Part shown: in pieces, positions 1 to 26,231 of the stretch | Numbering within the stretch: the stretch's first letter is position 1 | How the letters are laid out: each line of letters starts with the position of its first letter | IMG/VR virus record: IMGVR_UViG_3300005605_000578 | Location: 1 to 31,399 of that record | Strand: one strand, 5' to 3' | Source: a virus | DNA length: 31,399 nt | Made by a program: the position numbers and the translations under genes | Notes under the pieces: model-generated | Seen by the model: only the letters and a program-made list of their open reading frames with translations | Told to the model about the DNA's origin: nothing | Database searches by the model: none

Positions 1-310
1 AGCCTGTGGTGATATGATGAATGTGTATATTAAATGTGATAAGGTAACGGATTGTATTAAAGATTGTAAGTGGTTAACTTTTGGTTGTGCTTCAGCAATA
101 GCAAGTACATCAATGATGTCCGAAATGGTAGTAGAAGATGGTGGAATGCAAATAGAAGAAGCATTAGAAATAAAACCAAAACAGATTATGGAAAGATTGG
201 GTGGATTACCATCAAGGAAATTTCATTGTTCAGTATTGGGTGATAAGGCATTGAAAGGTGCTATCCACGATTATTTTGAAAAGACAGGACAAGAAGAAAG
301 AATTACATAA
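1..310 (+). CDS. IscU/NifU-N-like Fe-S cluster scaffold (5' partial)
   Basis: The reading frame is open from the window edge, so the gene is 5'-truncated; the first in-frame Met (position 14) is internal. The frame begins A-C-G-D-M-M and continues with GCASAIAST and FHCSVLGDKALKGAIHDY. These match the three conserved cysteine blocks of IscU/NifU N-terminal scaffolds (ACGD, GC.SAIAS and HCS.L), which assemble [2Fe-2S]/[4Fe-4S] clusters for transfer to apo-proteins. All three ligand cysteines are kept, as is the Asp after the first, so the protein looks competent. In cells IscU is usually beside iscS, but the upstream neighbour is outside the window. A phage copy might supply clusters for phage enzymes or redirect the host pool (inference). 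The family call is confident; the role is not. Confidence 0.88.
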   Translation, partial: ACGDMMNVYIKCDKVTDCIKDCKWLTFGCASAIASTSMMSEMVVEDGGMQIEEALEIKPKQIMERLGGLPSRKFHCSVLGDKALKGAIHDYFEKTGQEERIT

Positions 311-2537: not shown

Positions 2538-4066
2538 ATAATACACCATATATTGTAACCTTTTATAAGGAACAAAAAAATAAAAAAAATGGAATCAAGG
2601 TAATTCTTAGTGAAGATTGGTATCCATCAGCAACTGGATATGTTTATCTATGGACATTTGAATTAGAAGGAGATGTTTGGTATTATCTTGGATATCATTC
2701 TATAAAGATTGATGAAAAGAAGTTCTATGATTTTTCATCCGAAGTTCCTAAGATGAAAGAACTTTATGGAAACGAAAAATGTCAAAAGACATTAATAGTT
2801 AAACATTGGGGAACTGCAGAGCAAATGAAGAAGAAAGAAGAAGAATTACTTGAAGAAGTAAAACATAGATTCTGGAATAATGGTAAAGGTGATTACTTTA
2901 ACCAAAGAATACAATACACTTCTGGCAATCAAATATCTGGTGTTGATTTGGATATTGTATCAACGGTAAATAAAGAACTTGAAATACTAAAGGATAAAAG
3001 AACTGATAAGTATAATGAATTAGAAATTTTAAATCCTAATTTAATTGTAGAAGATTATTCTGCAAAAGAATTATCTGGTATGAAGAATTTACAAGTTAGA
3101 GAAGTTGCAAAAATTCAATCACTAATTATAGAACTTCAATTTTTAATTCAAACACAAATTGATAATCAAGAAGATATTAAAGAAGGTGCTAAATGTGTTG
3201 TTATTTTAGAAGATAGGGATTGGAATCTAAAGGGTGTAGAAACTCATTGGGATAAAGTTCTTATTTGTGGTAAACATACTGCAGATTCATATGGTGGTGG
3301 AGATAAAAAGTGGATAGATTATGCCACATTAGATGTTATAATAATACCAAAAGAAATACATCAACATTGGAATGATGTGGAAGTTTGGAAAATAGCAAAT
3401 GGTGATAATGAAAAAAATAATTCTGTAGAACCATTAACCAAAGATGACATTGTACGAGAATATCAAATTATGGTTGAGAATAATTTAGATTGGGAAACGG
3501 ATGAAGAACACAATAGAATTAAAAAACTATTGAAGTCTAAAGATGCGTGGAAGTATATAAAAACTCAAATGGGAGATTATCTTGTAAATAAACAAAGAGC
3601 ATCACAAGGAAAGGGCCCAAGAATTAGTTGGGGAACTACTACAAACCAACATGCAATACTTCAACGGAAAAAATGTGTAAAGTTAAATGGTGGAACTGAT
3701 GATGAATTAATAGCTAATTTTATAGAAAATGGTATTTCACCAAAAGATGTGTACCACAAAGGCCCCATTACTTGTGAAATCGTTAATCCATATATACAAC
3801 TCTTTGGCCCGTTAAATACGAAGATAATAAAATATTGTACAGAAAATAACATAAGTGATAAGAAACAAAAACAATATATTGAAGAGTTTCAAAATAGTAT
3901 AAAAAAAGTAAAGTATTATTTATATTATCCAAATCCAGCAGCTAAAGAAAAGTTTGCTAAAGATAATAGTCATAGAACTCAAATATTTGGTAACGGTGCT
4001 CATTTTCTTTTTCACGACTATGACTATGAAATACTTGATGAATTTGAAAAGGGAATTACTACATGA
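2534..4066 (+). CDS. GIY-YIG-like nuclease-fold protein with possible ParB-like middle
   Basis: 510 residues; the start overlaps the methyltransferase stop (ATGA). The N-terminal about 130 residues look like a GIY-YIG domain: GYVYLWTF (GIY strand), WYYLGYHS (YIG strand), a later helix GTAEQMKKKEEELLEE with the expected Glu, and a closing GDYFNQ that supplies the Asn. A clear catalytic Arg is not obvious, so activity is uncertain. A helical linker (about 150-210) follows. The middle region has WKIANGDN...PLTKDDIVREYQ, faintly like the end of ParB-nuclease domains followed by an HTH; this is a weak impression. The rest is unrecognised. Its place inside a co-translated run with methyltransferase, PLP enzyme and glycosyltransferase suggests work on the same substrate, perhaps modified DNA. 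It could also be a homing-type nuclease remnant. Confidence 0.55.
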   Translation: MNNTPYIVTFYKEQKNKKNGIKVILSEDWYPSATGYVYLWTFELEGDVWYYLGYHSIKIDEKKFYDFSSEVPKMKELYGNEKCQKTLIVKHWGTAEQMKKKEEELLEEVKHRFWNNGKGDYFNQRIQYTSGNQISGVDLDIVSTVNKELEILKDKRTDKYNELEILNPNLIVEDYSAKELSGMKNLQVREVAKIQSLIIELQFLIQTQIDNQEDIKEGAKCVVILEDRDWNLKGVETHWDKVLICGKHTADSYGGGDKKWIDYATLDVIIIPKEIHQHWNDVEVWKIANGDNEKNNSVEPLTKDDIVREYQIMVENNLDWETDEEHNRIKKLLKSKDAWKYIKTQMGDYLVNKQRASQGKGPRISWGTTTNQHAILQRKKCVKLNGGTDDELIANFIENGISPKDVYHKGPITCEIVNPYIQLFGPLNTKIIKYCTENNISDKKQKQYIEEFQNSIKKVKYYLYYPNPAAKEKFAKDNSHRTQIFGNGAHFLFHDYDYEILDEFEKGITT

Positions 4067-4848
4067 TGAATAATATATTTATACAAAATGAAATAGATGA
4101 ATACATAGATGTGATATCTAAAGAATGGACAGACCCATTACCATCACCTATTATTCAAGAACATGAGGGATTCCAAGTTGTAAGAGAAGACTTAATCAAT
4201 GGTAGTTCTAAAGTTAGAGCAAGTGATTATTTAGTCAGTACTTTAACTGGAGTTGAAGAATTAGTTTATGGAAGTTGTCCTGCAACTGGACATGCTCAGA
4301 TAGCACTATCAGTATTGGCAAAACGATATGGAAAGAAATCAGTTGTATTTATGGCAGAAAGAAGTGAAGATAATTTAACCAAACAACAAAAACATGCAAT
4401 CAAAGAGGGTGTAGATTTTCGTTGGGTTAAGATGGGATATCTAAATGTAACGGAAAAACACGCAAGGGATTATACAAATGAGAACCCAGAGAAAAGACTT
4501 CTTGTTCCAATAGGTGTAGACCATCCTGCAGTTATTGCTGGTTATGCAGTTATAGCAAAACGAATGGGAATACAACCAAAAGAAGTTTGGACGGTAGGTT
4601 CAAGTGGTACTCTTACGAGAGGATTACAACAAGGTTGGCCTGATGCAGATTTTCATTGTGTTGCAGTTGGACATAAAGGTGATTACGGAAGAGCTAAGGT
4701 TTATCAATGTCCATTAACATTTCCACAAAATGTTAAGAAAGAAGATGCTCCACCATTTCCATCGGTTAGTAATTATGATGCAAAGGCGTGGAAATATATG
4801 AGAGAACACGCTTCACCAGGAGCATTATTTTGGAATGTAAGCGGATGA
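4063..4848 (+). CDS. Fold-type II PLP enzyme, ACC deaminase/D-Cys desulfhydrase-like
   Basis: 261 residues, ATGA overlap with the previous gene (a second ATG lies at 4066). NGSSKVRASDYL places K50 where ACC-deaminase/D-cysteine desulfhydrase relatives (GG.K.RK..YL) carry the Schiff-base lysine. VGSSGTLTRG (178-187) fits the phosphate-binding loop (GSGGT..G). GSCPATGHAQIA (70-81) occupies the position of the usual QSNH loop that holds the substrate carboxylate, but is altered, so the substrate probably differs from the textbook enzymes. At 261 residues it is shorter than typical members (about 320-340). Placement between a nuclease-fold protein and a glycosyltransferase makes an amino-acid-derived base modification more likely than core metabolism (inference). 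Confidence 0.8.
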   Translation: MMNNIFIQNEIDEYIDVISKEWTDPLPSPIIQEHEGFQVVREDLINGSSKVRASDYLVSTLTGVEELVYGSCPATGHAQIALSVLAKRYGKKSVVFMAERSEDNLTKQQKHAIKEGVDFRWVKMGYLNVTEKHARDYTNENPEKRLLVPIGVDHPAVIAGYAVIAKRMGIQPKEVWTVGSSGTLTRGLQQGWPDADFHCVAVGHKGDYGRAKVYQCPLTFPQNVKKEDAPPFPSVSNYDAKAWKYMREHASPGALFWNVSG

Positions 4849-14612: not shown

Positions 14613-15113
14613 ATGCCTTATAGATATAGTAAAGCTAGAACTTCCGATTATTATAAAAATGTACAAGATGCAGATGAACAAAAACTTTTAAAATCTTTAG
14701 AAGAAGAAAAGAAAAGAGCTGCAATATCTGGTTCAGCACTTGACGCAACAGACCCATTGAGAGATGATAATGGATATTTGTTATCATATGAAGACCCTAA
14801 AAATAAAGGTAATTCAATGGAAAAAGAACATCAATATGTTAGACTTCCAGTAGTACAAAAGTCTTCTAATAAAGAAACATTTATAAAGTTTTTTGGTCCT
14901 GAAGAATTGGGTGGAAATGGTGCATCAATGTTCAATGAGTTACTTAGTGAAATACCACCTGAAGAACCAGAAGTAACAGCTCCTGAACTTGAAGGTATGA
15001 GAAAAGAATTACAAGCCAAGATAGATGCTCAAGATGAATTAAATACAACCTTAAACGAAACTATAGATGAATTACAAGTAGAACTTGAAAAAGTAGCAAC
15101 AGAGGGTGATTAA
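14613..15113 (+). CDS. Small virion-block protein with C-terminal coiled coil
   Basis: 166 residues, starting one base after the previous stop and ending on the start of the large tail gene (TAATG). A basic N-terminus (PYRYSKARTSDYYKN) precedes a charged helix (EQKLLKSLEEEKKRAA). The middle is polar, and the last about 45 residues form a strong coiled coil (MRKELQAKIDAQDELNTTLN and on through ELQVELEKV). No family recognised. Coiled-coil ends in this setting often mediate trimer assembly, so it may connect wedge and fibre or chaperone the following protein. Confidence 0.6.
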   Translation: MPYRYSKARTSDYYKNVQDADEQKLLKSLEEEKKRAAISGSALDATDPLRDDNGYLLSYEDPKNKGNSMEKEHQYVRLPVVQKSSNKETFIKFFGPEELGGNGASMFNELLSEIPPEEPEVTAPELEGMRKELQAKIDAQDELNTTLNETIDELQVELEKVATEGD

Positions 15114-18100
15114 TGTTACAATATGGATTAAATAAAAAAGATAAAGAACAATTAGAACTTCCTGGATTCCTGCCTTCTGGATTTGGTAGAAGAAATGAAG
15201 ATTATATTCATATCTATGTTTACCAATCAGACGACTTAACTACTGATGAAAACGATGTATTAGTTGGTGATGAAATATTTCCTGCAGGAGATATATTTCC
15301 AGATGATAGAAAAGTTGACTTAGATATTGGTGGCCACCTACGAGAAATGGGTTTCACAGAAGGTACTTATAAAGTTAAGTATTTATTTTTAAAAAGACTT
15401 GCTGGTAAACAACAAACTGTATTTGTAAATGAGTTTGGTGAGGTTCATGTTGGTAGAGTTCAAACAAAAGTTATTAATGGTAAAACTAAATATTTTTCAA
15501 CTAAAAAATTTGGTAAAAGACAATCAAGACAAGAATTAAAAGAAATATTTGAAAAAGAATTAAAATATGTTGTAAAGAAAATATCAGCCGATAAATCAGA
15601 AGTTGAAGTAGATACTCAACATATTCAAAATTCACTTTATAGAAAAAGAATAAAAGAAATAAATTCATGGATGACTTATACGCCACTTACAAATTCTACT
15701 TCAGGTAAAATAAGATTTGATTTAACAGACCCTAATATTTTGATATTAACACCACATGATAAAGAACCAGGTTTTAGTGATGCAATGATTGGTGGACAAA
15801 TAACAATTAAAGGTATGTATAGTGTTACTGGACAACAGATTTTAGAAAATATTAAACCTGTAGAAGTTCCACCAATTTTTACCCCAGAAGATGTGTCAAA
15901 TATAGATATTTTTGCTGGTGTAACTACAGGAGAAGAACAACCATCTGTAGATGAACAGATTCAAGAAAGAGCTGCAGATGAAGAAGAACGGGGTATGGAA
16001 AAATACGATAGATTTTCAGGTGTTTGTTTTACAGGAGATACAAAAGTAAAATTAAGTAATGGTAGACAAGTTCCAATAAAACATCTAAGACAAGGAATGA
16101 AAGTCAAAACAGAAATTGGTTATGCAAAAATATTAAAATTAATTAAAGATGAAAGACCATATGGTGATACACTTTCTAAATTTAAGAATCTAATAACTAC
16201 AGATAACCATCCAATGAAGTATCGTGGTAAATGGTATAAGGCTCATGAGATTGGTAAGTTGTTTGAATCTAAACCACTTAATGTTTATAATTTAATTCTT
16301 GATAAACACCACACAATAGTTGCAAACAATGTTGTTTGTGCTACTCTTGGTAAGTGGGAATCAATGAAGAAGTTTGAAATGTGGAGAGAAAAACAAATCA
16401 CTATGTTGAGAACCTTTGATGAGGAAGACGATAATTTAGGTCGCGGTAGCGGGGGAACGACTTATAGTACACCATATATTGCTAATAATGAAGTTGTAGT
16501 TAATGACCCACCACCAAGTGTAACTCCAGAAAATATTAGAACGACAATAGCAGTGAGTCGGGCAGCTCCTGAAGTACCAACTGTTCCAATACCAGAACCA
16601 ACAATTGAAATACCAATTGATTATGTTGGAACAATTGTTGAGGTGTTGGATAATAATAGAATTAGAGTTGATACATCATATGAAGAGGGTGCAAATAAAT
16701 TTGAACATAGTGGTGAAGATAATTCAAGAGCAATATTTGATGAGTGTTTTGTTAAATTTAAAAAAGGACAAATTGAACGATTAAATACTTATATGGTTTG
16801 TAATGGAAATTATCATTTAGTACTTAATTATTTAAAAAATCCATATGGACAAGAGACTTCAAGACTTGTAAAGTTATATGAAAAGTTACCTGATGAAACG
16901 GAAGAAATGGATTTATGTTATTTCGTAGAAGAGAAAATGGAGCCATATGAAGATACCATTACCTTAGTTCCATTTAATGAGGAAGACCCTGAGATATTAT
17001 TTTTAAGATTACCAGATTTTAATTCAACTAATAATCCTATAAATTTTAGAGGAACAAAATTTAATAATTATACTCAATTGATAGGTACTGATTCGGGTGT
17101 ACAAGAAGATATTCAAAACAAATTAGTTTCTCAAAGTTTACTTGATACACAAGTTAATGTTGATTATTCTAAAAGAAAAGATGTATTTGGAAAAGATATT
17201 TCAGATTATGGGTTTAGTAATTTTGCACACTTCGGTAGTGCTGAAAAAAGAATTGATAATTTTAAAAAGAAATTGGAGTTAATAGAATTATATACTTCAT
17301 CAAGTTTATCGTTTGGGAATGTAACGGGTTCAGAGAGAACAATTGGAGCATTTAATGCTAAAAAACGAAGAGTAATAAATAGTTTTGATCCTTATGAACA
17401 TTATTTATATTTTGAAAGTTCATCATATGCCACAAGTTCAGTTGGAGAATTTTATTCTGCTAGTTGGCCAAAAGAAAATTCAACTTCACCATATACATTA
17501 GTTCATACTTCAGGTTCAGCAGCAACAGATTGGTATAGTACATTTGGTGGGTATGCAAAAAATTATGATAAAAGAAATGGAAATAGATTAGTAAATAATT
17601 TACCACATCATATAACAACCGATACTGAAAATAATGTATTCTTAGATTTTATGGATATGATAGGACAACAATTTGATGAGATATTTGTTTACTTGAGACA
17701 CTTTACAGATATGAATGAAAGAACGAATAAATTATCAGAGGGTATTTCAAAAGATATTGTAAGAGAAGTTGCAAAAACTATGGGATTTAGTGTAGTTCAG
17801 GGTAATGATTTAATGATACTACCAAATTATTTGTTGGGTAAAAACCCAGATGGTACTTCAAAGTATGAATCACCACAAGAACAAGTAACAGAAGAAATAT
17901 GGAAAAGAATTTTAGCAAATATGCCGTACTTTATGAAAACAAAAGGTACTATGAGAGCAATGAAAGGATTGTTAAATTGTTATGGTATTCCAAGTTCAAT
18001 ATTAAGAATTAGAGAATATGGTGGTCCTGATAAAGGAACGAGAGTTACACATGAGGTAAAGAGAAAGTTTACATACGCATTAGATTTTAAATCTTCAGAG

Positions 18101-19906
18101 TATGTTGATGTGGAATGGACATGGGATGGGGATGGAATTTCTACAGGGAGTGGAATAAGACCTGAAACAGTAGAATTTAGATTTAGAAGTCCAGTATCAA
18201 AAGACCAAGTTATAATGAATCAAGCAAGTAATTGGGCAATATCATTACGAGATAATGGAGCAACTGATGATTATGGATATTTAGAATTTGCTATGAGTGG
18301 TAGTTCTCTTGCATATGTTACTTCATCTTTATTACCAGTTTATAATGATGAGATGTGGAGTGTAATGTTAACAAGGAAATTAGCAACAGGTGTAGATTTA
18401 GATGGTGATGGTACACCACAAAATATAAAATATGAATTAACTACAAAACAATATGATTCAAGTAGGGAAGTAATTTTATTCCAAGATAGTCAAAGTTTAA
18501 CAACAAATACTGCAGGGATAAATACTAAATTTGTACAAGATGGTAATGTAAGTATTGGTGGTAGTGGAACTGGTTTTTATACAACACAATTTAGTGGTTC
18601 AATTATGGAATATAGATTGTGGAGTGAACCATTATCACAAAGTGTATTTGATAATCATGTAAAGGCACCAAAGTCATATAATGGAAATACTACTGAATCT
18701 TTCTTTGATAATTTGATACATAGAACACAATTTAATGATAATGTAACTTTACATTCGACTTCAAGTTTTACTGATAATAGTTTTTCAGGAACATATAATG
18801 CAACTGGTAGTGCTAAGGGTTTTAGTGGAAATCAATTTAGAAGTCTTGTAGATAAAGAAGAATTAAGAGTTCCTAATTTGGGCCCAAGTAGAAGAAATGC
18901 AACCAAGATAAGATTAGAGGGAACAAGTTTAAACGGCCCACTATCATCTAATATTAGGAGAGAACAATCTTCACAAGATTTTGCACCAATAGATAGTAAT
19001 AAACTTGGTGTTTACTTTTCACCGACTGATGTGGTGAATGAAGATATAATGTATTCCATAGCGGATTTTGATTTTAATGATTTGGTTGGAGACCCACGAG
19101 ATGTTTATGAAGATAGTTATCGTGGATTAGAACATACACAAAGAAAGTATTGGAAAAAATATTCAAAAACAAATAGTTTTTGGGATTATTTAAGAATTAT
19201 AGATTTTTATGATAGTGGTATTTGGACTCAACTTAGAAAACTATCACCTGCAAGAGCAAACACAACTCTTGGTGTATTGATTGAACCAAATATTTTAGAA
19301 AGAAGTAAAGCAGTTGTTGGTAAAATTCCAGAATTTGATAATCAATATTTTGAGAATGCAGACCATTTTGGTTATGGAATAAATATGACTAATTTTATAA
19401 GTGGTTCTGATGATAGGTTGATAGTTATTACTGGGGAATATCCAAACTATGAGGGAGTTGTAAATGTACATAATAATGAATCAGGTTCACTTGGAACATT
19501 AGCAATACCATCATTAGTTAGATTGGGAGAAATAGACCCAAGAACTGAATTTGGTGCCACATATGCAACAGCAAGTACTTCACAAGGAGCTGTATCCAGA
19601 GTATTTACTGAAGCAGTACAACCATTTATTAGTTCTTCAAGGATATCAGAACACAATGAAATAAAATACAAGAATTATGCGAGTTCACAAGATGCTTATA
19701 CCGATACACCACTTAGTTCATCATTTGAACCAGCGGAATATCAGAGTATGGCATATGACTCAAAGCTTTTTAGACTTTTTTATAAAGGTCAATTATTAAC
19801 AAAGAAAAATACAATTGATGGAAAAGAACCTGTCGAGATAACTATAACATCACCAACTAAACTTGTAACTCAAGAACCTGGTGATTCTAAACTTAAAGTT
19901 GAATAA
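15113..19906 (+). CDS. Giant tail/baseplate protein with internal Hint domain and LamG-like region
   Basis: 1597 residues. Residues 1-300 are a beta-rich tail domain interrupted by a Hint (hedgehog/intein) domain at about 305-412. GVCFTGDTKVKL places the nucleophile-type Cys at 305, TTDNHPM gives the block-B His at 366, and VYNLILDKHH with VANNVVCATLGK forms the end strands. The usual intein C-terminal His-Asn is absent, so splicing is doubtful. Later, RILANMPYFMKTKGTMRAMK and LLNCYGIPSSILRIREYG (about 930-970) resemble phage tail protein I-like segments. VEFRFRSPVSKDQVIMNQ and the strands up to about residue 1185 look like a LamG/concanavalin fold. It lies directly after the wedge genes and is probably a gp7/gp10-like wedge or fibre-base protein (inference). 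Size and composition match virion proteins. Confidence 0.75.
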   Translation: MLQYGLNKKDKEQLELPGFLPSGFGRRNEDYIHIYVYQSDDLTTDENDVLVGDEIFPAGDIFPDDRKVDLDIGGHLREMGFTEGTYKVKYLFLKRLAGKQQTVFVNEFGEVHVGRVQTKVINGKTKYFSTKKFGKRQSRQELKEIFEKELKYVVKKISADKSEVEVDTQHIQNSLYRKRIKEINSWMTYTPLTNSTSGKIRFDLTDPNILILTPHDKEPGFSDAMIGGQITIKGMYSVTGQQILENIKPVEVPPIFTPEDVSNIDIFAGVTTGEEQPSVDEQIQERAADEEERGMEKYDRFSGVCFTGDTKVKLSNGRQVPIKHLRQGMKVKTEIGYAKILKLIKDERPYGDTLSKFKNLITTDNHPMKYRGKWYKAHEIGKLFESKPLNVYNLILDKHHTIVANNVVCATLGKWESMKKFEMWREKQITMLRTFDEEDDNLGRGSGGTTYSTPYIANNEVVVNDPPPSVTPENIRTTIAVSRAAPEVPTVPIPEPTIEIPIDYVGTIVEVLDNNRIRVDTSYEEGANKFEHSGEDNSRAIFDECFVKFKKGQIERLNTYMVCNGNYHLVLNYLKNPYGQETSRLVKLYEKLPDETEEMDLCYFVEEKMEPYEDTITLVPFNEEDPEILFLRLPDFNSTNNPINFRGTKFNNYTQLIGTDSGVQEDIQNKLVSQSLLDTQVNVDYSKRKDVFGKDISDYGFSNFAHFGSAEKRIDNFKKKLELIELYTSSSLSFGNVTGSERTIGAFNAKKRRVINSFDPYEHYLYFESSSYATSSVGEFYSASWPKENSTSPYTLVHTSGSAATDWYSTFGGYAKNYDKRNGNRLVNNLPHHITTDTENNVFLDFMDMIGQQFDEIFVYLRHFTDMNERTNKLSEGISKDIVREVAKTMGFSVVQGNDLMILPNYLLGKNPDGTSKYESPQEQVTEEIWKRILANMPYFMKTKGTMRAMKGLLNCYGIPSSILRIREYGGPDKGTRVTHEVKRKFTYALDFKSSEYVDVEWTWDGDGISTGSGIRPETVEFRFRSPVSKDQVIMNQASNWAISLRDNGATDDYGYLEFAMSGSSLAYVTSSLLPVYNDEMWSVMLTRKLATGVDLDGDGTPQNIKYELTTKQYDSSREVILFQDSQSLTTNTAGINTKFVQDGNVSIGGSGTGFYTTQFSGSIMEYRLWSEPLSQSVFDNHVKAPKSYNGNTTESFFDNLIHRTQFNDNVTLHSTSSFTDNSFSGTYNATGSAKGFSGNQFRSLVDKEELRVPNLGPSRRNATKIRLEGTSLNGPLSSNIRREQSSQDFAPIDSNKLGVYFSPTDVVNEDIMYSIADFDFNDLVGDPRDVYEDSYRGLEHTQRKYWKKYSKTNSFWDYLRIIDFYDSGIWTQLRKLSPARANTTLGVLIEPNILERSKAVVGKIPEFDNQYFENADHFGYGINMTNFISGSDDRLIVITGEYPNYEGVVNVHNNESGSLGTLAIPSLVRLGEIDPRTEFGATYATASTSQGAVSRVFTEAVQPFISSSRISEHNEIKYKNYASSQDAYTDTPLSSSFEPAEYQSMAYDSKLFRLFYKGQLLTKKNTIDGKEPVEITITSPTKLVTQEPGDSKLKVE
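16025..16348 (+). other. Hint domain coding segment inside the tail gene
   Basis: Codons 305-412 of the tail protein. Visible elements are Cys305 with FTGDTKV, IKHLRQGMKVKT (block A extension), ITTDNHP with His366, a KWYKAHEIG strand, and the closing VYNLILDKHHTIVANN. The last block runs into VVCATLGK instead of ending His-Asn before Cys/Ser/Thr, a variant also seen in hedgehog-type Hint proteins with a C.TLG end. Length of about 108 codons means there is no homing-endonuclease insertion. Confidence 0.75.
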
Positions 19907-23856: not shown

Positions 23857-25119
23857 ATGAGAAAATTATGGATGATACCATTGTTATTTAGTTTTGTGTT
23901 TTCACAAAATGTAGTAGTAGACTTCTTTAAATATTCAACTGTATATGCTGGATTTAATTTATCTTCACCTAAGTGGGAAGATGATAGATACAGATTATCA
24001 TTGTTAGATGAAGATGGAAACCCAGATTGGTATAATGGAACAATTAGTGTAAATAAAGAAGACAGAGAATTAGACCCAGACTTTGATTTCTCATTTGGTA
24101 TAAGAAAAATCGGAAGATTTCAATATGAACCAAAACGAGGAATTAAAAATGCTGGAGTAGGTGGAGATTGGTATAAAGGAAATGAATCAAATCCTAATGA
24201 GGCTGCCACAATTGGTAGAGTTAAAGGATTTGAGTATTTAGTAAAGTATGAAGAAAATCGTAGATGGGATGAGAAATTTACATCTCAAGAATATAATTTA
24301 CGATATCTTGGTGATTGGTTTATTGCTAAAATAAAATACCATGATTTACAATTAGAAGATATTAAATATTCACAGGCTGATTTAAGATATAGAAAAGAAT
24401 TTCTATTAGAAGATGCAAGTTTAAATCTATCAGTTGGTATTGGAGCAAGAGAACATCCAGTTTATGGATTTGCCCCTACCGTTATAGATACATCTTGGTA
24501 TACAGGAGCATGGTGGGAATTTGCAGCAGATGAGTTTGGTGTAGAAGATAAATTTTATTGGGGTGATACAGATGGAGATGGACAACCAGATGGTGGAATG
24601 TCTATATACGATGCAGCTACAGGAGAAGTAGTTGGTTGGGTAGGCCAAGACTTCAGGTGGTTTGATGCCAATGGTGAATTAATGGCAATGAGTGATAGAG
24701 AATTTTATCAATATCATTTTCCAGGATTATTAGAAAATTGGTTTGAAGACAGAACAAGAGGATTAGGAAATCAAAAAGAAATATCATTATCATTCGGTTT
24801 AGATTATTATAAATATACTGAAAATTTTTGGATTCATGCATGGGGAACTTTATTTCCAATACACTATGGTTTAGATAAATATTCATTCCATAATGCATTT
24901 TCATTTAAAGAACATGAAGAAAGAGGTGGAGACCCACTTGATTTTGAATTTAAAGATGCAGAATTAGAACAATGGAATGATTATGACTTTGGTGCAGTAA
25001 TAGGATTTAAATTAAAAGATAATTTAGGTTTTTATGCTGAAGGTAAATATTTATACTATTGGGAACGCCCTACATATGATGTACGATTAGGGTTAAATTA
25101 CCAATTTGTACAGAATTAA
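23857..25119 (+). CDS. Predicted outer-membrane beta-barrel protein
   Basis: 420 residues. Signal peptide MRKLWMIPLLFSFVFS, then Gln. The mature part has many alternating amphipathic strands with aromatic girdles (FEYLVKYEENRRW, YNLRYLGDWFIAKIKYHDL, EISLSFGLDYYKYTENFW). It closes with YDVRLGLNYQFVQN, a last strand with the aromatic near the C-terminus that recalls the barrel-assembly signal. Residues 237-245 (DTDGDGQPD) form a calcium-binding-type Asp loop, probably extracellular. No phage receptor-binding or fibre signature is seen. Phage-encoded outer-membrane proteins are rare; known examples replace or mask host porins to block superinfection, which is a reasonable hypothesis here. Alternatively it is a virion-attached protein. 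Barrel nature is inferred from strand pattern. Confidence 0.65.
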   Translation: MRKLWMIPLLFSFVFSQNVVVDFFKYSTVYAGFNLSSPKWEDDRYRLSLLDEDGNPDWYNGTISVNKEDRELDPDFDFSFGIRKIGRFQYEPKRGIKNAGVGGDWYKGNESNPNEAATIGRVKGFEYLVKYEENRRWDEKFTSQEYNLRYLGDWFIAKIKYHDLQLEDIKYSQADLRYRKEFLLEDASLNLSVGIGAREHPVYGFAPTVIDTSWYTGAWWEFAADEFGVEDKFYWGDTDGDGQPDGGMSIYDAATGEVVGWVGQDFRWFDANGELMAMSDREFYQYHFPGLLENWFEDRTRGLGNQKEISLSFGLDYYKYTENFWIHAWGTLFPIHYGLDKYSFHNAFSFKEHEERGGDPLDFEFKDAELEQWNDYDFGAVIGFKLKDNLGFYAEGKYLYYWERPTYDVRLGLNYQFVQN

Positions 25120-25133
25120 TATAGGAGATACAA

Positions 25134-25217
25134 ATGTTAAAATCGTGTAAAAACCCAAATTGCAAATGTGAAAATTGCAAATGTGAAAATTGCAAATGTA
25201 AAAATTGTGATTGTTAA
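25134..25217 (+). CDS. Metallothionein-like Cys-rich micro-protein (27 aa)
   Basis: A 27-codon gene with TAGGAG placed six to seven bases before its ATG, filling the gap between the beta-barrel gene and the MshEN gene. It encodes nine cysteines in 27 residues (positions 5, 10, 12, 15, 17, 20, 22, 25, 27) as repeated C-K-C-E-N units. The density of C-x-C and C-x-x-C is typical of metallothioneins and other metal-thiolate peptides. The DNA is a 15-base tandem repeat (25158-25217, three near-exact copies and a partial one), so the protein may have grown by repeat slippage. There is no signal peptide, so it is presumably cytoplasmic. Metal binding is inferred from composition; the family is not one I can name. 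Confidence 0.72.
   Translation: MLKSCKNPNCKCENCKCENCKCKNCDC
25158..25217 (+). repeat. 15-bp tandem repeat coding N-C-K-C-E
   Basis: Units AATTGCAAATGTGAA at 25158-25172 and 25173-25187 are identical; the third (25188-25202) differs by one base and the fourth (25203-25217) is diverged and ends in the stop codon. The unit length keeps the reading frame. Confidence 0.92.
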
Positions 25218-25236: not shown

Positions 25237-25797
25237 GTGGACGAGAAAAAGTTAGGTCAGATATTACTCGATAAAGATGTAATAACTAAAAGACAATTAG
25301 CATCAGCTGTACAATCACAGATAAAAGGTGATAATAGAAAAATTGGGGAAATCTTAATTGATAAGGGATTTCTTACTATGGAAGATTTAACAGATATTTT
25401 GTTAGAGAATGGCCATAGTGAGCCTGAACCATTATCAGTTGTAGAAAAGGAAGAACCTAAAGAATTAAGTGAAAATACAAAATTTTCATTATCTATACAA
25501 ACTATGATTAGTGCAGCAGTTGGTATTGCTACACTCGTTGGATTTTATTATATGATGATGGGAGAGATTCAAGAAGCAAAAGAATTACCATCATTAGAGA
25601 ATTTATACTCAAATGAATATCCATCAAAACCAGAAGGTTATAACTGGCCGCGTTCTTATGAACAATATAAGGATCAGGTTGGTTCACTTCAAGAGGACAT
25701 GGATGATGTATTTGATAAATTAGATGAATATAAAGAAAAGATTGAAGAGTTAGAAAAACAAGTTACAGAATTAAGAATCAAGGTGGGAAGCAAATGA
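25237..25797 (+). CDS. MshEN-domain membrane protein with coiled-coil tail
   Basis: 186 residues, GTG start with CGGAG seven bases before it. Residues 5-59 contain two tandem copies of the MshEN/GspE-N motif: KLGQILLDKDVITKRQLASA and KIGEILIDKGFLTMEDLTDI, matching R-L-G-.-.-L-V-.-.-G-L-I-.-.-.-.-L. In type II secretion/pilus ATPases such as MshE, this pair binds cyclic-di-GMP. Here no ATPase follows. Instead there is a membrane helix (about 88-109, MISAAVGIATLVGFYYMMM) and a C-terminal coiled coil (about 145-180). The protein might bind cyclic-di-GMP or dock on a host pilus/secretion component from the inner membrane. The first copy has D where Gly is usual, so ligand binding is uncertain. 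Confidence 0.68.
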   Translation: MDEKKLGQILLDKDVITKRQLASAVQSQIKGDNRKIGEILIDKGFLTMEDLTDILLENGHSEPEPLSVVEKEEPKELSENTKFSLSIQTMISAAVGIATLVGFYYMMMGEIQEAKELPSLENLYSNEYPSKPEGYNWPRSYEQYKDQVGSLQEDMDDVFDKLDEYKEKIEELEKQVTELRIKVGSK

Positions 25798-26231
25798 AAA
25801 AAATGATAAGAACTTTTATATTTTGGTTTGTATTTGGTTTCGTTATGATGAGTTCAGTATCAGGTCAAGACAAACCTGTACCAAAACGAACTCCAACCAA
25901 AGTAGAAATTACAGATAAAACTTTTAAGTCAAATATAGCTAAAGGTGTTGTTGTAGTGATATTTAATGCAGATTATCAAATGTCAAGTATAGACCCAAAG
26001 ATGATAAAAGCTATTGAAGGTCATGAAAAAGCAGTAGTTATAATTGTAAATGAAAATAATGTTAAAGCAGTTGTAAAAAAATTAAGGTTGAGAAATTATC
26101 CATCCATAGCCCTATTTCATGATGGTGCAAAGAAGAAAGTTTGGAAACCTGACATGGATGGTAATTTAGGTATTGATCATAAAGATGTTAAAAAAGAAAT
26201 AACTAATATATTTTCAGGTGATGTATTTTAA
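25794..26231 (+). CDS. Exported thioredoxin-fold protein lacking the CxxC motif
   Basis: 145 residues, ATGA overlap with the MshEN gene. Signal peptide about 1-24 ending SVSG, then Gln. The mature part follows thioredoxin order: VEITDKTFKSNI, central strand VVVVIFNADY (52-61), a helix, strand AVVIIVNENN, helix VKAVVKKLRL, and NYPSIALFHDG (101-111) with the conserved cis-Pro site at P103. Where thioredoxins have W-C-G-P-C, this protein has YQMSSI, so it has no redox cysteines and cannot act as a disulfide enzyme. Such relatives often serve as chaperones or binding scaffolds in the periplasm. Tight coupling to the membrane gene suggests they form one complex. Confidence 0.68.
   Translation: MKKMIRTFIFWFVFGFVMMSSVSGQDKPVPKRTPTKVEITDKTFKSNIAKGVVVVIFNADYQMSSIDPKMIKAIEGHEKAVVIIVNENNVKAVVKKLRLRNYPSIALFHDGAKKKVWKPDMDGNLGIDHKDVKKEITNIFSGDVF

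Follow-up and report, generated by a model that had tools for sequence, protein, structure and literature searches.

A 27-codon cysteine-rich gene of an uncultivated tailed phage encodes a peptide resembling metallothioneins in composition and cysteine spacing

Metallothioneins typically contain few or no His and aromatic residues. The short fungal copper metallothioneins are ∼25 aa long with 7 Cys, and the beta-domain of animal metallothioneins has 9 Cys; a set of nine thiolates suits an M3S9 cluster, as in the animal beta-domains, whereas a set of seven fits the fungal copper peptides. Bacterial metallothioneins of the PF02069 group possess His ligands and a zinc-finger part (PMC7387436). 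None of the open-access papers found describes a phage metallothionein. Here we describe a very small Cys-rich phage gene and compare its predicted product with these peptides.

The DNA analyzed here, called the window as a whole, spans the 31,399 bases of an IMG/VR virus record. It encodes a T4-type baseplate wedge protein whose nearest cultured relatives are found in Microcystis phage Mel-JY01 (48%) and Flavobacterium phage immuto (40%). The window is accordingly assigned to a tailed phage of an uncultivated, myovirus-like group. The features discussed in this work are as follows.

25134..25217, + strand: gene of 27 codons whose product is the Cys-rich, metallothionein-like peptide (sequence, Markov simulations, relatives with invariant Cys)
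25123..25127, + strand: AGGAG, Shine-Dalgarno-like, 6 nt ahead of the ATG of the Cys-rich ORF
25157..25207, + strand: 15-bp in-frame tandem repeat encoding a C-K-C-E-N unit (Tandem Repeats Finder, 3.4 copies, 97% matches)
23857..25119, + strand: upstream neighbor, 420 aa, with signal-peptide-like N-terminus; marks the conserved block
25237..25797, + strand: downstream neighbor, 186-aa membrane/coiled-coil protein (34 related loci)
25794..26231, + strand: thioredoxin-fold protein with signal-peptide-like N-terminus (PF00085, E = 9.8e-6; conserved block by synteny)
2..310, + strand: NifU/IscU-like Fe-S scaffold, truncated by the left contig edge (PF01592, NifU_N, E = 4e-30)

The small ORF begins with an ATG at 25134-25136, ends with a TAA at 25215-25217, and encodes MLKSCKNPNCKCENCKCENCKCKNCDC, a product of 27 aa with 9 Cys (33%). 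The Cys residues are arranged as CxNPxC followed by an overlapping CxCxxCxC, giving CxC and CxxC spacing along the whole length; the peptide has zero His, Phe, Trp, and Tyr and lacks a signal peptide and a hydrophobic core. Each 15-bp unit of the tandem repeat contributes two more Cys. The ORF fills the gap between the end of the 420-aa gene at 25119 and the GTG start of the next gene at 25237, and only 19 bases separate it from the latter. A preliminary description of this DNA had placed the gene in this gap, and its coordinates proved exact to the base; the good ribosome-binding site, the in-frame tandem repeat of C-K-C-E-N, and the nine Cys in C-x-C/C-x-x-C spacing (one third of the 27 residues, as confirmed from the translation) were likewise found as it had claimed. 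When the window was simulated 200 times with a first-order Markov model, ORFs of ≥15 aa with ≥30% Cys arose by chance at a rate of 0.015 per window. The actual window contains exactly one, 25134-25217.

Among the genes around the Cys-rich ORF, the 420-aa upstream neighbor has no family in Pfam or PHROG and is presumably outer-membrane-like, and the 186-aa downstream neighbor has no confident family in either database. The thioredoxin-fold protein contains zero Cys and is thus not a classical thiol oxidoreductase. Further genes of the block encode an MscS-like domain protein (PF00924) and a PAP2 phosphatase. Neither a metal-responsive regulator nor a metal transporter was observed next to the Cys-rich ORF. 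Elsewhere in the window, 4063-4845 encodes a PALP-type PLP enzyme (PF00291, sub-threshold), and a 1597-aa late protein (15113-19906) contains a stretch, VCFTGDTKVKLSNGRQVPIKHLRQG..., that by eye resembles a Hint/intein-type domain.

Relatives were taken from loci related to the two neighboring genes, with the 420-aa upstream gene used as a query, and were screened for Cys-rich ORFs. In a codon alignment of 11 sequences, all seven core Cys codons were invariant, with pN of 0 and pS of 0.28 in the Cys columns and pN of 0.18 in the non-Cys core columns; as the Cys columns offer just ∼2.3 synonymous sites in each sequence and the core was defined by the motif, these values are strong in direction and not in precision. 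Beyond the number of Cys, the residue spacing (CxNPxCxC) is conserved among the relatives. Repeat number shifts by whole 5-residue units: the window and locus L193, whose upstream neighbors are 97% identical in protein, are one 15-bp unit apart, and so are loci L189 and L195. The intergenic gaps and their sequences vary freely and the position of the ATG shifts in some relatives, with a GGAG/AGGAG-type site retained upstream. The preliminary description had proposed the conservation of Cys spacing as a check and had named frameshifts, stops, or a lost Cys pattern in related phages as evidence against the gene; the core Cys codons were kept, and none of these defects occurred in the 11 codon-aligned relatives. 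From the Cys invariance with synonymous change, the whole-unit repeat variation, and the retained ribosome site, we concluded that the ORF is a real coding gene under selection.

Seven of 11 related contigs (27-106 kb) each carry, on the coding strand, exactly one small Cys-rich ORF preceded by a ribosome site, always within one and the same gene block, and a profile search agreed with this screen for the window-type peptide. One extra small Cys-rich ORF match, on the opposite strand, was present in G007. The other four long contigs have no such ORF, absences that are soft given incomplete contigs; the gene is therefore dispensable, unless it is located beyond the sequenced part. Its slot shifts within the block, being directly after the 420-aa gene or before the 26244-type, 25237-type, or 420-aa gene. 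The gene downstream is of the 25237 type in the window, G001, L193, and G012, of the 26244 type in G008, G011, and L192, of the 23857 type in L016, and of other types in G006, G010, and L026. In G011, G012, L016, and L026 the block carries a dissimilar Cys-rich peptide with CxC/CxxC spacing, for example MRDCECNGCQCEYACECGCCCECECEACACVVICECECCKDTE or MCNCCDCCDCGCGCKS. Here the window type has given way to a peptide that differs in sequence and matches it in chemistry, which suggests that thiolate content is what the block retains.

The motif recurs well outside this phage group. A DNA pattern search for CxNPxCxCxxCxC gave at least 119 stretches in viral contigs, mostly in small ORFs. Among the matches listed there were 55 distinct cores with a start codon and ribosome site, in peptides of 19-62 residues; nine Cys was the commonest number (34 of these 55 peptides), followed by seven in 12, and any His, Phe, Trp, or Tyr was present in 27 of the 55 listed vs. 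94% expected. Pattern matches without a start codon (many CKCKNCKC; FNIPVHCNRIKYF... frames) were discarded as noise. These viral-contig relatives (MCNNPECKCENCTCDPCECSSENPCGC...) share the CxNPxCxCxxCxC core with the window peptide, and their profile matches the window-type peptide of G001 (E = 3.9e-6), but they are longer, contain CDPC and PCGC segments, and occur in other phages with other neighbors. Their immediate large neighbors include tail assembly chaperones, head-closure, structural, PAAR, and NifU-like proteins and many unknown proteins; the ORFs thus lie largely among late-region genes of diverse phages, and a marine setting appears likely for many of the contigs. One nearly identical 40-aa Cys-rich peptide (MADEDKKNCNCENCDCENCTCSEENPCACMTDKQGED(T/N)NG) was seen in viral contigs of different samples (L126, L135, L140, and ∼15 more loci). 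Two secreted-looking phage-contig proteins (L113 and L118) combine a DnaJ-like CxxCxGxG stretch with a tail of C(D/T)NPNCKCKNCKCKNCGC at the C-terminus; in them the Cys motif of the phage peptides is fused to a larger protein. A local control showed that queries such as the window and L195 peptides are masked entirely by the low-complexity filter of tblastn. In cultured phages, tblastn with CDPC-type queries, which escape this masking, gave no convincing match (best E of 0.9), and profile searches with the A4 alignment in 8 records and with the A1 alignment in 7 records and Mel-JY01 were all empty, with working positive controls. The viral-contig examples put to search had no Pfam, PHROG, or NCBIfam family. 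As relatives in many other viral contigs retain the Cys while their remaining residues vary, these viruses probably carry metal-binding metallothionein-like peptides of their own.

A scan of the genome collection gave eight matches. In two of them (L173 and L179), an ORF for MSC(D/N)NPKCNCKNCNCENC... is flanked by an MBL-fold hydrolase gene on one side and by cysE-cysK on the other; L179 is labeled Polaribacter, yet its gene order is that of L173. SAR11 loci L353-L363 (G016, G159, G105, G101, G032, G172, and G208) contain a conserved Cys-rich ORF of 39-43 aa, MxCxNPKCxCxxC...CDG...CCC, without a recognizable ribosome site. In the five loci examined it is directly upstream of cysE, mostly in the order MBL-fold hydrolase gene, ORF, cysE-cysK, and a profile of six SAR11 peptides found matches in nine of 197 genomes of the SAR11 family. 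The SAR11 peptide resembles the phage peptide in its N-terminal CxNPxCxCxxC, and the phage profile matches one of them (E = 6e-5); it differs in its length, in its C-terminal CCC and CDG parts, and in its chromosomal, cysteine-synthesis neighborhood. Homology of the two is possible from this similarity, and convergence of low-complexity sequence fits equally well; it is also possible that the SAR11 peptides beside cysE are the cellular source of the phage peptides. The SAR11 ORF itself may encode a metallothionein or act as a leader that senses cysteine. Three loci of Erysipelotrichaceae/Tenericutes MAGs (L175, L176, and L178) encode GrpE-like proteins extended at the N-terminus by a Cys-rich stretch (CKCKNCECENCNCESC...), suggestive of a metal-responsive co-chaperone, and a Saccharibacteria MAG (L180) encodes an HtrA-like serine protease whose cytosolic N-terminus bears CKCENCKCKNCKH ahead of the membrane helix. 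A 35-aa Cys-rich ORF, MKTYKIDCTCNCEGCKNGDCKNCECTNCTCKNCSC, lies right behind a sigma-factor-like gene in L352 (G017 contig C28).

The window peptide was also compared with known families. No family in Pfam, NCBIfam, or PHROGs includes it, and no metallothionein family gave a significant sequence match; the only sub-threshold Pfam match was PF12749, a eukaryotic metallothionein, and the solved-structure look-alikes, also sub-threshold, included the metallothioneins 6gv6, 6gv7, and 1m0j. Sub-threshold matches to surface glycoprotein and channel toxin structures were put down to chance. The PF02069 profile did not match in five records, with positive controls that included Synechococcus elongatus. 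Because of this result, and because there is no room for His ligands and a zinc-finger part, the peptide is by profile not a PF02069 bacterial metallothionein. It can nevertheless be called metallothionein-like in composition and spacing: the peptide and its relatives are small, with Cys within the ∼20-33% range of metallothioneins and CxC/CxxC spacing, and His and aromatic residues are absent from the 11-sequence alignment as they are from the window peptide. Such resemblance can arise by convergence in a low-complexity peptide. The preliminary description had stated that no phage family with this repeat was known, which held for the databases and the open-access literature searched; undescribed relatives, however, are abundant in viral contigs.

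We consider it rather probable that the ORF is a real phage gene of the late, structural region for a small cytosolic metallothionein-like peptide that buffers or holds metal in late infection. A peptide with no hydrophobic core, aromatics, or His and with an overlapping CxCxxCxC has no obvious non-metal fold, which favors a cytosolic metal-thiolate buffer. We infer that the Cys thiolates of the CxNPxC and the CxCxxCxC run probably wrap d10 ions, Zn(II), Cu(I), or Cd(II), in a metal-thiolate cluster, for which nine Cys would be sufficient in the M3S9 form of the mammalian beta-domain. As each 15-bp unit brings two Cys, the number of units would tune the metal capacity. Its most likely job would be to buffer or hold metal, probably Zn(II) or Cu(I), inside the host late in infection. 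The overall interpretation in the preliminary description thus stands as far as a real, selected, Cys-spaced, familyless small gene of a tailed phage is concerned, and its metal role is a prediction from composition and spacing.

Four other explanations were weighed. Instead of buffering bulk metal, the peptide might supply a phage metalloprotein, such as a NifU/IscU-like scaffold, a PAAR-type spike tip, or zinc enzymes, with Zn, Fe, or clusters. A NifU_N scaffold is encoded at 2-310 of the window; NifU_N (3), PAAR (3), and glutaredoxin (1) occur among 94 neighbors of ∼60 Cys-rich loci of other phages, and NifU immediately adjoins the Cys-rich ORF in L201, L244, and L256. Those three loci, however, belong to a single related lineage (84-89% identity), most neighbors are head, tail, or unknown genes, and no NifU homolog was found in the 11 related contigs, which are incomplete. 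Since NifU was not found in close relatives of the window, the scaffold at 2..310 is a weak candidate for a functional partner; delivery to it, the main variant of the metal-thiolate explanation, is weakly indicated, and we regard the delivery reading as unlikely. The very high thiol density and the thioredoxin-fold protein in the same block would also fit a peptide that buffers thiol redox state or scavenges reactive species and binds metal only incidentally, but that protein has no Cys of its own and bulk buffering does not need strict CxC/CxxC spacing, which makes a redox role quite unlikely.

Polycysteine ORFs are reported to be cysteine-responsive attenuators in mycobacteria (e.g., PMC9094748), and the phage ORF resembles them in being short, Cys-rich, and just ahead of other genes; the similar SAR11 peptides just upstream of cysE, usually followed by cysK, point the same way. 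If the phage ORF were such a leader, its translation would sense the cysteine supply and attenuate whichever gene follows, and the product would have no function of its own. However, the polycysteine leader ORFs act in cis on one operon, and the phage ORF has no fixed cis position, its slot and downstream gene differing among relatives. There is also no terminator-like site at the ORF, the next gene is only 19 bases away, RNA folding at the ORF is weaker than in shuffles (z of 1.63), and the CxNPxCxC spacing is conserved in addition to Cys number. This explanation was rejected on the variable synteny and the lack of a terminator or strong fold, and we hold it to be very improbable. That the ORF is a non-functional low-complexity repeat, open by accident, is suggested by the 15-bp tandem repeat and is scarcely credible: Cys is invariant with synonymous change across relatives, ribosome sites are kept, and the background of such ORFs on the 11 contigs is near zero. 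A DNA-repeat artifact was rejected on the codon-level Cys conservation.

If the metal-buffering interpretation is true, many environmental phages encode metallothionein-like peptides of their own, in genes that have been missed because they run to only ∼20-45 codons and are hidden by low-complexity masking. Virus infection would then be tied to cellular zinc, copper, or iron-sulfur handling and to trace-metal recycling at lysis, and the genes would be a source of tiny natural peptides that bind metal and gain or lose Cys in steps as repeat units are added or removed. More tentatively, and with somewhat less confidence than doubt, we suggest that CxNPxCxCxxCxC peptides form a widespread, never-annotated superfamily in environmental tailed phages (many probably marine), serving host trace-metal control late in infection, with capacity tuned by repeat units, and exchanged with hosts such as SAR11.

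Compared with known systems, the phage peptide is similar to SmtA/BmtA and the Pseudomonas metallothioneins (PF02069; 6gv6/6gv7) in being small, Cys-rich, and presumably cytosolic, and has a CxCxxC-type stretch in common with them (weak alignment at CGCPDCHC). It differs from SmtA in having no His and no zinc-finger-like second half and in being about half as long. Compared with the fungal copper metallothioneins and the animal beta-domain, it has no detectable sequence homology and is phage-borne; in length, Cys number, CxC spacing, and the scarcity or absence of aromatic residues and His, it is like them.
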